64,000 bases of DNA from Ferrovibrio sp. MS7 (GTDB taxonomy: Bacteria; Pseudomonadota; Alphaproteobacteria; Ferrovibrionales; Ferrovibrionaceae). The notes beneath the pieces were generated by a model. That model made no database searches. It was given only the letters and a program-made list of their open reading frames with translations, and was not told the DNA's origin. Positions 23,609 through 27,308 of the stretch are shown here, in pieces. The stretch covers positions 2,074,001 through 2,138,000 of the forward strand of contig NZ_JBBKBA010000001.1 of assembly GCF_038404985.1 (NCBI RefSeq), in the 5' to 3' direction. The translations under genes were made by a program, and so were the position numbers. Each line of letters opens with the position of its first letter. Position 1 is the stretch's first letter.

Positions 23609-23709
23609 TTTGACTACCAACATCCTCTTGTTTGCTTTGCGCACGTTGCCGTTTTAAGGTTGCGTGAAACCCGGCACAGACCGTGGTGCGCAGAAGTGGG
23701 GAGGGTGTG

Positions 23710-24882
23710 ATGGCTGGCAGCAGAATTGCGCGCTTGCGCCTGATCGCGGCAGGCATGATGGCGGGCCTTGGCTTCGCCACGGCTGCGCAGGCGGCTGATC
23801 CCGGCGTATTTTCCGACCGGATCGTTTTCGGCCAGGCAGCGGTGATGGAAGGGCCGGCCTCGGCGCTCGGCACCGGCATGCGCGATGGCATCCTGGCGGC
23901 TTTCGGCGAAGCCAATGCCGCCGGCGGCGTGAAGGGCCGCAAGCTGCAGCTTGTGGTGCGCGACGATGGCTACGAGCCCAGCAAGGCGGCAGTAGCGGCA
24001 CGCCAGCTTCTGAATGAAGACAAGGTCTTTGCCCTGATCGGCCCGGTCGGCACGCCGACCTCGGCCGCCATGGAGCCGATTGTCGCCGCCGAGAAGGTGC
24101 CGTTCATCGGGCCGTTTACGGGGGCGGAATTCCTGCGCAATCCCTACAAGCCGCATGTGGTGAATGTGCGCGCCTCGTATTTTCAGGAAACCGAGGAAAT
24201 GGTGGAGCGCCTCACCACCGACCTGAAGCATGAGCGCATCGCTATTCTGTATCAGAATGATTCCTTCGGCCGTGCCGGCCTTGCCGGCATCCAGCGCGCG
24301 CTGGCCAAGCGCAAGATGGAACTGGCCGGCGAGGCGACTTTCGAGCGCAACACCACCGCCGTGAAGCGGGCGCTGCTGGAACTGCGCAAGGGCAATCCGC
24401 AGGCCATCATCATCATCGGCCCCTATGCGCCCTCCGGCGAATTCATTCGCGCCGCCAAGAAGATCAATCTCAAGGCGGTGTTCGTGAACATCTCCTTCGT
24501 CGGCTCCGATGCGCTGGCCGCCGATCTTGGCACGGATGGTGCCGGCGTGGTGGTGACGCAGGTGGTGCCGTTCCCGCGTGATACCAGCATTCCGCTGGTC
24601 GCGGCCTACCAGAAAGCCCTGGCCGAACATGTGCCGAAGGCCTGGGGCGGCTTCATCTCGCTGGAAGGCTACATGGTCGGCAAGCTGGTGATCATGGCGT
24701 TGCAGAAGCTGGACGGCGAACCGACGCGGGCCAATCTGCTGAAGGCGCTGAATGCAGGCAGCTATGACCTCGGCGGTGTCACGCTGACCTTCGGGGAAAA
24801 TGACAACCAGGGCTCGGACGCGGTGTTCCTCACCGTGATTGGTGCCGATGGCAGTTTCAAAGCGATCAAGGCCCTGCAATGA
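23710..24882 (+). CDS. Leucine-type (PBP1) periplasmic binding protein
   Basis: 390-residue exported binding protein of the branched-chain amino acid (LivJ-like) type, with a signal peptide ending ATAAQA near residue 28. Two-lobe blocks include [35 protein letters not shown] and [13 protein letters not shown]. Start at ATG 23710 after ggagggtg, rather than the GTG at 23683. No ABC permease or ATPase lies nearby; instead the stop overlaps the start of a chemoreceptor (ATGA at 24879), which suggests the protein senses a ligand for that receptor. Ligand unknown. Confidence 0.9.
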
Positions 24883-27308
24883 CCACGATGACCGAGACTC
24901 AGCCGGTGGAGGCCGATATGGATCATGCCGTGACCGCTCCGGTAGCCGCAAACCGTCCCGCCGCCCGGCGCCACGCCCGGGGCATGGGCATCCGCCAGAA
25001 GCTGTTCCTGGCCTTCGGCGCCATTGCCGCGCTTACCGTGGTCTGCGCGCTCAGCGCCGGCCTGTTCATGAACCGGATCAATGACACGCTGGATCATGTG
25101 ATGAAGGATAGCCTGCCGGCGGTGACCGCATCGCTGAATCTGGCGGCGTTGTCCTCCCAGCTCGCCGCCGCCGCGCCGGCCCTTGGTGCCGCGCGCAGCG
25201 AGGCGGATCGCAACGATCAGGAGCAGCAGATTCACAAGCGCATCGACGCCATTGCCAATGCGCTGACCCGGATCAAGCAGAGCGGCGCCACCAGCGATAC
25301 CGGCCGGATCGAGGCGGCGATTTCCACCATGGATCGCCAGATCAACACCATCGGCGAGCGCACCGCCTTGCGGCTGCGGCTAGCCGAACAGCGCGGCGAT
25401 ATCATCCGCAATGTCAACCGCACGCTCGATGCCTATACCGCTTCCACCGCCAAGCTGTTGGACGACACGGTATTCTCCGTCGTCATGACGCTAGAAGGCG
25501 TTGCCCAGAGTGGCCGCAATCTGAGGGATGTGGCCGAGTATATGAAAGGCGTGTCCGAGTTCGAATTCGCCCTGGTCGATGGCCTATCGGAACTGACCGC
25601 CGGCATGAACCAGGCGGCAAGCCTGCTGGAAGCCATGGCGAATGCGCCGGGTGAGGCGGCATTGAACGGCCTGGTGGACCGTTTCCAGAGCACCGAGACG
25701 CGTATGCGTGGTGCGCTGAAAAGGGTGAGTGATGCCTATAACGACGAGGCGATCCGCAAGGCCGTGGATGACATGATCAGCTTTGGCACGGCACGTGATG
25801 GCATCATCGCGCTGCGTCGCCGTGAGTTGCAGGCCCAGACCCAGGTCGACAATGCGCTGGCCTCGGCACGCCAGGCGGCATCGACACTCGCCCAGCAGAC
25901 CGAAGCGATTGTAGCCATTGCAGAGCAAGGTGCCAGCGCGGCGGCGGATGCCTCTTATGCCACGGTGAAAACTGGCATTGCTGTGCTGGCGGTGCTGACC
26001 GGCCTGAGCCTGCTGGCGGCAGCGCTGATCGGCTGGCTCTATGTCGGCCGTCGTGTGGTCGACACCATGGTCGGCCTGACCGGCGTGATGGACCGCCTAG
26101 CGCATCGCGACTGGAGCACCGAGGTGCCGGACCGCACCCGGCTGGATGAAATCGGCGACATGGCGCGTGCGGTGCAGGTGTTCAAGGAGAACGGCATCGA
26201 GAACGAGCAATTGCAGCGGCAGGTCGAGGATAACCGCCAGCGTTTCGAGCGCGAACGCGAGGCGCAGGAGGAACTGATCGACCGCTCGGTCGGCCAGATT
26301 GTCTCGGCGGCGGCGGCCGGCGATTTGACCCAGCGCATTGATGCCTCGGCCCTGGATGGCGTGATGCAGCGTCTGGCGGAAGGCGTGAACACGCTGCTGG
26401 ATAGTTTCGCCGGTGCCATCGAGGCGGTGAACCGCACGCTTGACCAGATGGCCCATGGCGACATGACGGGCCGTGTGCAGGGCGAGTTCAAGGGCGTGTT
26501 CGCGGCTTTGCAAGGTAATGTGAATCAGACCGCAGAGCGGCTTGCCGGCGTGGTGCAGCGTATCAGCCAAACTGCCCAGGCAGTGCGCGAGGCGGCGGCT
26601 GAAATCTCCGCCGGTTCCACCGATCTTGCCGGGCGCACCGAACAGCAGGCGGCGAGCCTGGAGCAGACAGCGGCCTCGATGCATGAGATCACTTCCACGG
26701 TGAAGCAAAATGCCGAGAGCGCGGAAGCCGCCAACCGGCTCAGCCAGGTGGCGCGCAACACTGCCAATACCGGCGGTGATGTGGTGGAGAAAGCGGTGGT
26801 TGCCATGGCCGGCATTGAGGCCAGCGCCGGCAAGATTGTCGATATCGTCGGCCTGATCGATGAGATCGCCTTCCAGACCAACCTGCTGGCGCTGAATGCC
26901 AGCGTGGAAGCAGCACGCGCCGGCGAGGCCGGCAAAGGCTTTGCCGTTGTGGCACAGGAAGTCCGTGCACTTGCTCAGCGCTCGGCCAATGCCTCAAAGG
27001 ACATCAAGGCGCTGATCAACGAGTCCAATGTGCAGGTGCGTCAGGGTGCCGATCTGGTGAAACGCGCCGGCGAGGCGCTGACCGAGATCGTGACATCGGT
27101 GAAAAAGGTGGCGGACATCGTCGCCGAGATCGCTTCGGCGAGCCAGGAGCAGGCGACGGGACTTGATGAGGTCAACACCGCCGTATCGAACATGGATGAG
27201 ATGACCCAGCGCAATGGCGCCCTGGTGGAGCAGACCACAGCCTCGGCCCAGGCGATGTCGACCCAGGCCGATCAGCTCAACGAACTGGTGGCGTATTTCA
27301 GGCTTTAG
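24879..27308 (+). CDS. Methyl-accepting chemotaxis protein, large sensor domain
   Basis: 809-residue transmembrane chemoreceptor. TM1 at about 41-65, a helical periplasmic domain of about 295 residues, TM2 at about 362-391, HAMP near 390-445, a second HAMP-like unit near 470-555, and the signalling hairpin with [20 protein letters not shown] near 662. The periplasmic start, [20 protein letters not shown] then APALGAAR, resembles TorS-type sensor domains, which read a periplasmic binding protein. Overlap with the binding-protein gene supports the pairing; the partnership is inference. ATG 24879 or 24888 may be the start. Its stop overlaps the convergent yqgE stop by 4 bp. Confidence 0.93.

Follow-up and report, generated by a model that had tools for sequence, protein, structure and literature searches.

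Which partner does a periplasmic binding protein (PBP) serve, when its gene overlaps that of a chemoreceptor and no ABC permease gene lies beside it? The question is raised by a gene pair of Ferrovibrio sp. MS7, found in a stretch of 64,000 nucleotides of contig NZ_JBBKBA010000001.1 (positions 2,074,001 to 2,138,000), the whole of which is hereafter called the window. Comparison with related loci strongly supports the notion that PBP and receptor form a unit; in all likelihood, this unit is a dedicated co-receptor module similar to TorT/TorS, used here for chemotaxis and elsewhere attached to other outputs. Gene layout, domains, conserved pairing and changes of output can be read in the sequences, the TorS-like fold in a predicted model.

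Organization of the gene pair

The initial annotation of this DNA had described a LivJ-type PBP sharing the bases ATGA with a chemoreceptor, and the overlap is found exactly in the sequence. The features of the pair, including its methyl-accepting chemotaxis protein (MCP) domain, are the following:

23710..24882, + strand: PBP gene, 390 aa (ATG at 23710, stop TGA at 24880-24882)
23710..23793, + strand: probable Sec signal peptide, PBP residues 1-28 (sequence, hydropathy, low model confidence)
24879..24882, + strand: ATGA stop/start overlap (sequence)
24879..27308, + strand: chemoreceptor gene, 809 aa (ATG at 24879, stop ending at 27308; Pfam, NCBIfam, hydropathy)
25113..25931, + strand: TorS-type periplasmic sensor domain, receptor residues 79-351 (PF21689, fold of the model, Foldseek)
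26046..26189, + strand: HAMP domain, receptor residues 390-437 (PF00672, E 4.8e-7)
26358..26534, + strand: second HAMP-type domain (HAMP_2), receptor residues 494-552 (PF18947, E 5.3e-13)
26739..27206, + strand: MCP signalling domain (MCPsignal), receptor residues 621-776 (PF00015, E 1.2e-50)

Translation of the PBP gene could also start at a GTG at 23683. The overlap of PBP stop and receptor start suggests a single transcript with coupled translation; the same four-base overlap is seen in L022 and L023, among other related loci. Within its own genome, which contains 39 matches to PF13458 and 21 to MCPs, this is the only close PBP-MCP pair: the matched domains are separated by 1.9 kb, the next-closest distance being 11.3 kb.

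A TorS-type sensor domain

With an MCPsignal domain, HAMP domains and two transmembrane (TM) segments, the receptor is built as an MCP, the order being TM1, TorS-type periplasmic domain, TM2, HAMP, HAMP_2 and MCPsignal according to Pfam, NCBIfam and hydropathy. Two peaks of hydropathy, at residues 41-64 and 365-389, place the periplasmic part at approximately residues 65-364, near the 66-361 given in the initial annotation. The resemblance of this part to TorS, also suggested there, was borne out by profile and fold searches, both of which matched residues 79-351 and exclude a lack of similarity. TorS_sensor_domain (PF21689) scores 38.8 bits on these residues (E 9.9e-10, curated cut-off 27), and the match spans positions 1-272 of the 275 of the profile. 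The receptor is not TorS itself, because the TorS equivalog model TIGR02956 scores 113.3 bits on residues 37-469, far too low for its cut-off of 676.5, and because the output is an MCP and not a kinase/receiver.

From 47 paired receptors, an AlphaFold2 (AF2) model was made of receptor residues 30-445 (mean pLDDT 83.7). With this predicted model as query, the first five ranks of VIA-align are all occupied by TorS entries of the PDB (Z 21.0-19.2), three of which are TorS-TorT complexes; the best one, 3o1i_B (Z 21.0), superposes with a root mean square deviation (rmsd) of 2.6 Å over 266 residues. Foldseek matched the model to TorS with E 1.5e-6, and its five matches at E <= 0.001 are all TorS. 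By profile and by predicted fold, the periplasmic domain is TorS-like.

Next in the VIA-align ranking come McpS (16.4 for 2yfb, and 15.8), McpZ (15.3) and PilJ (15.2, two entries). The second place of McpS, whose HBM domain binds its ligand directly, might indicate that the present sensor does the same, the PBP gene being a mere neighbor, and the genus has indeed TorS-like MCPs with no such PBP adjoining. We regard this explanation as very improbable: the fold is nearer to TorS than to the similar, lower-ranked fold of HBM-type McpS, the pairing is too constant (78 of 79 and 25 of 30 loci in the two sets described below), and the co-divergence of PBP and receptor is specific to the sensor. The HBM domain (PF16591) was not among the families reported up to E 1 in the Pfam scan of the receptor.

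A second TorS-like MCP is encoded in the same genome (L001:5111-7651, on C1 at ~2.53 Mb), with no PBP adjoining and a PF21689 score of 23.8 bits, below the cut-off of 27. It may share the window PBP, or use another orphan PBP.

Recurrence of the pair in related loci

Loci of named genomes were taken as the best 80 of 416 PBP relatives, with PBP identities of 54-100%; 79 are readable downstream of the PBP, L099 ending at the contig border. A receptor with this sensor lies directly downstream of the PBP, on the same strand, in 78 of the 79, so that the pairing is not a matter of chance. ATGA overlaps as such are frequent among bacterial genes, and adjacency might thus be an accident of genome packing; this is hardly credible for a pair which recurs across orders and phyla, with spacers ranging from -4 to 211 nt, is present or absent jointly, and is kept in the proportions reported here for both sets of loci.

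The sensor was recognized by a hidden Markov model (HMM) for which the receptors of the window and of 46 loci, 47 in all, were used. A version covering residues 30-445 was rejected as too broad, because it includes TM2 and HAMP: it matched also 12 of the 15 other MCPs present in the loci. The loci were therefore recounted with a periplasmic-only HMM, and the figures for both sets were unchanged. As the HMM was trained on 47 receptors, the fair count is that of the remaining 33 loci: 32 of these 33 receptors are matched (weakest E 3.6e-24), compared to 3 of the 15 other MCPs, used as a control (best E 7.2e-13).

The second set comes from an evenly drawn sample of the class, 386 genomes in all, 33 of which have a PBP match at E <= 1e-50, in 40 places. 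Thirty were taken as loci, the other 10 being mostly of 34-41% identity; six of the 30 were already in the genus set, and others may overlap the named loci. In 25 of the 30 the PBP is paired with the sensor, down to PBP identities of 47-48%.

In Phaeobacter, Ruegeria, Terrarubrum and Thioclava, an annotated "ABC transporter substrate-binding protein" is followed by an annotated "methyl-accepting chemotaxis protein", with the following matches to the sensor HMM:

Phaeobacter inhibens DSM 17395, PGA1_RS18200/18205: E 1.3e-10, within the range of the control MCPs
Ruegeria sp. TM1040, TM1040_RS01290/01295: E 1.9e-20
Terrarubrum: E 2.6e-53
Thioclava: E 2.5e-15

PBP relatives on annotated plasmids bear the same transporter label. 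The P. inhibens pair (L101) lies on plasmid pPGA1_262, flanked on one side by glycosyltransferase genes and on the other by azlCD-type genes accompanied by an Lrp-type regulator. In a Bosea metagenome-assembled genome (MAG), an extra open reading frame (ORF), truncated at the contig border and 347 aa long, is found downstream of the paired receptor (L058:9995-11036, sensor HMM E 1.2e-73).

Co-occurrence and co-divergence

Within the genus, the PBP and an adjoining orthologous sensor (at least 48% identity) are found together in 5 of 10 genomes, and the other five are without both: four of them hold only TorS-like receptors of at most 27% identity, and one has no match.

A mirror-tree analysis was carried out on 33 non-redundant pairs, those of 47 rows which remained after removal of PBPs more than 92% identical. 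PBP distances correlate with those of the sensor (r 0.88, rank 0.63) and with those of the MCP domain (r 0.74, rank 0.45); the partial correlation is 0.69 between PBP and sensor, given the MCP domain, and -0.03 between PBP and MCP domain, given the sensor. None of 2000 permutations of a partial Mantel test reached 0.69, and the same was true without L085 or without the Ferrovibrio rows. The PBP thus diverges in step with the sensor, and not with the MCP domain that belongs to the same receptor. The PBP is the most conserved part, with a median identity of 60%, followed by the MCP domain (45%) and the sensor (25%), as would be expected if the ligand were the same throughout.

Search for a cognate transporter

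The absence of ABC permease genes beside the PBP, noted at the outset, is confirmed, the nearest match to permease family PF02653 being 341 kb away; the window PBP is not co-encoded with LivHM-type permeases. Most PF13458 matches of the genome (33 out of 39) lie within 7.5 kb of a PF02653 match. Six, including the window PBP, are orphans, more than 39 kb from a permease, so that orphan status alone is not rare. When LivH/LivM-type proteins encoded in five genomic regions were used as queries against the 80 related loci, of 3.6-13 kb each, homologues were found in only two (L052 and L053); ABC ATPase homologues were found in 10.

A dual role could be envisaged, in which the PBP delivers its ligand to an ABC importer encoded far away and, like maltose-binding protein (MBP) with Tar, signals to the receptor as well. 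The 58 BPD_transp_2 matches of the genome make a partner in trans possible, the ATPases in 10 loci would fit, though such ATPases serve many systems, and it is well established that binding proteins can activate chemoreceptors (PMC6321045 and PMC9602780). Against this, LivHM-type permeases are found in merely two loci, PBP and receptor are present or absent jointly in the genus, and the subfamily retains receptors of several output types and no transporter. Given also the pairing in 78 of 79 loci, service to a distant transporter is unlikely as far as the comparisons go, and so, in our estimate, is the dual role. The same pairing, scarcity of permeases and joint presence or absence support the dedicated two-part receptor originally suggested.

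The binding protein and its ligand

The PBP is a Peripla_BP_6 protein of LivJ type (PF13458, E 1.3e-63, 216 bits for a cut-off of 31.7). Its hydropathy peaks fall within residues 6-29, and residues 1-28 are a probable Sec signal peptide; the AF2 model (pLDDT 86.4) is of low confidence at residues 1-26. The PDB entry most similar to the model is 4kv7 (Z 43.0, rmsd 3.1 Å over 352 residues), with 3lop and 4m88 at Z 40.0 and 39.2, and LivJ and LivK well behind; these three are also the solved relatives nearest in sequence (253, 124 and 114 bits, respectively). A literature search on the three entries found no paper.

As many as 53 of the 390 PBP residues are invariant in 80 sequences, which makes one conserved ligand probable. 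Residues of the LivJ pocket were placed in the PBP solely via a profile alignment to 4gnr. In LivJ, a Ser presumably binds the carboxylate and an acid the alpha-ammonium of the ligand. Thr115, aligned with the former, is kept in 80 of 80 sequences, and Asn260/Ile261 align with the latter, an acid being found there in 0 of 80. This is only a weak hint that the ligand is probably not a plain alpha-amino acid. Among the 18 largest clusters of neighboring genes in the related loci, those which could be interpreted correspond to single-genus synteny, to ABC ATPases or MCPs other than the paired one, to ORFs resembling short-chain dehydrogenases (5 loci) and to a response regulator (6 kinase loci); none pointed to a ligand.

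Outputs attached to the sensor

Outputs were assigned by Pfam in 77 receptors, the window's and those of 76 out of 79 loci. The scan did not include L078, which is cut, or L096, which has no receptor; L021, a same-species Ferrovibrio MAG whose PBP differs by one residue from the window's, was left out of scan, tree and residue counts, the window's own proteins being used instead. MCPsignal was found in all of the 58 receptors picked by similarity of their MCP part (the window's and those of 57 loci), which make up the chemoreceptor class. The others are:

Histidine kinase, 10 receptors: L044, L072, L086, L089, L090, L092, L094, L097, L098, L100
Adenylate/guanylate cyclase, 5 receptors: L037, L040, L041, L049, L067
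SpoIIE-type phosphatase, 1 receptor: L075
GGDEF-EAL protein, 1 receptor: L091
Cut before the output, 2 receptors: L047, L061

Among the 19 receptors outside the MCP set, 15 match PF21689 at E <= 0.01, ten of them at or above its cut-off; the remaining receptors were assigned a TorS-type sensor by the HMM made here, and not by PF21689.

On the PBP tree (window and 79 loci), the output label changes at least 9 times over 76 labelled rows, a count which treats the lack of a receptor in L096 as a state and is soft as an exact number of exchanges, because the tree is a quick one, several branches are long and labels are clustered. One starred group of seven PBPs comprises four cyclases, two kinases and the phosphatase, and the starred sister PBPs of Microvirga and Azospirillum canadense go with a kinase and the phosphatase, respectively. 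We find it reasonably probable that a single module, probably with one conserved ligand, has been re-attached to five output classes, namely chemoreceptor, kinase, cyclase, SpoIIE-type phosphatase and GGDEF-EAL.

Two peculiarities of organization were observed. At least sixteen receptors carry a tandem double sensor (L037, L040, L041, L046, L049, L054, L067, L074, L077, L079, L080, L081, L083, L084, L087 and L088). In L086, L089, L092, L094, L097 and L100, a conserved response-regulator-like gene precedes the PBP, in the order regulator-PBP-kinase; these loci come from MAGs of Gemmatimonadota, Gammaproteobacteria and Binatia.

Exceptions and unpaired members

Several observations weigh against a dedicated co-receptor. 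A PF21689 match at E <= 0.001 was obtained for just 31 of the 58 MCPs that were scanned, and none was obtained for the receptors of Phaeobacter, Ruegeria and Thioclava; since the Phaeobacter match to our HMM is no better than those of control MCPs, the type of this sensor is unsure. The Rhodomicrobium locus L096 keeps the PBP with no receptor adjoining, and five of the 30 class-sample loci, with PBP identities of 43-54%, are without the sensor (L158, L159, L160, L163 and L174). Second PBP copies (53-55% identity; 3 of 13 genomes) have no adjoining TorS-type receptor, and two of them adjoin a CHASE-GGDEF gene. Conversely, 15 other TorS-like MCP loci of the genus have no PBP relative within about 1.4 kb of flank, so that the sensor domain is not always accompanied by such a PBP. 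Finally, part of the co-divergence might stem from joint inheritance of the linked genes, even though, after correction for the sensor, no co-divergence is left for the MCP domain encoded by the same gene. PBP relatives of 34-40% identity (L105, L106 and L020) have no TorS-type receptor adjoining, and the co-receptor claim is therefore confined to the PBP subfamily.

Other arrangements were seen around some of the unpaired PBPs. In two Bradyrhizobium genomes (L124 and L125), a paralogous PBP is divergent to the CHASE-GGDEF gene, and sensors of another fold may likewise have partners in this PBP family. PBPs of 53-55% identity are followed by ORFs with a signal-like start and Asp-rich repeats (L123:2363-4234 and L159:1-1452). 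An ORF with an N-terminal hydrophobic stretch, not matched by the sensor HMM, adjoins a PBP of 43% identity (L174:1-1431) and is perhaps a receptor of another type.

Proposed mechanism and implications

If the pair works as a co-receptor module, the PBP would be exported and catch a small ligand in the periplasm. The loaded PBP would then dock on the helical TorS-type domain, by analogy with TorT-TorS, and docking, or the ligand-driven closing of an already docked PBP, would shift the receptor helices; HAMP would relay this shift to the MCP domain and, presumably through CheA, to swimming. The PBP would act as a dedicated co-receptor and not as an importer subunit, and the pair would represent an old module, controlling elsewhere histidine kinases, cyclases, a SpoIIE-type phosphatase and a GGDEF-EAL protein.

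Members of this PBP subfamily are probably mislabelled when annotated as "ABC transporter" proteins. If a single module has indeed been re-attached to the five output classes, a whole subfamily annotated as transporter binding proteins would consist of dedicated co-receptors, and binding proteins would control second-messenger cyclases and a phosphatase. The label turns into a testable prediction in many genomes, including those of the cultured strains P. inhibens DSM 17395 and Ruegeria sp. TM1040. The presence of one sensor cassette on different outputs offers a direct test of how a docked binding protein drives unrelated outputs via the same periplasmic domain. A ligand, once found, would probably annotate much of the PBP family.

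Comparison with known systems

Activation by binding proteins is already known for chemoreceptors, kinases, diguanylate cyclases/phosphodiesterases and Ser/Thr kinases (PMC9602780), and of 11 chemoreceptor couples that have been studied, only 3 are encoded by neighboring genes (PMC11113362). The literature searched yielded no account in which a TorS-type chemoreceptor has a LivJ-type partner dedicated to it, or in which a PBP-TorS-type pair is attached to adenylate cyclases or to a SpoIIE phosphatase; the PBP-receptor pair is not described in the accessible portions of PMC6321045, PMC6381276, PMC9602780, PMC11113362, PMC3831638 and PMC8846402.

The model of the PgtB kinase (NF047794) matches receptor residues 36-475 with E 5.2e-9, the score being 34.9 for a cut-off of 1000 and the output a different one. 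PgtB itself is paired with PgtC. Partners of binding-protein-activated chemoreceptors are mostly importer subunits. In Tar-MBP, Trg-RBP/GBP, Tsr-LsrB and CtpL-PstS, a chemoreceptor reads a ligand-loaded periplasmic protein, as proposed here (PMC6321045 and PMC9602780); unlike the present one, receptors of this type have 4HB, HBM or CACHE sensors, according to PMC6321045.

The closest counterpart is the TorT-TorS(-TorR) system for trimethylamine N-oxide (TMAO), in which, as in the Ferrovibrio pair, a periplasmic binding protein goes with a receptor that has a helical periplasmic domain of TorS profile and fold, the fold of the window receptor being a predicted one. The two differ at both ends: the output is an MCP in the window receptor and a hybrid kinase in TorS, and the window PBP is a Peripla_BP_6 protein of LivJ type, whereas TorT belongs to the sugar-binding type.

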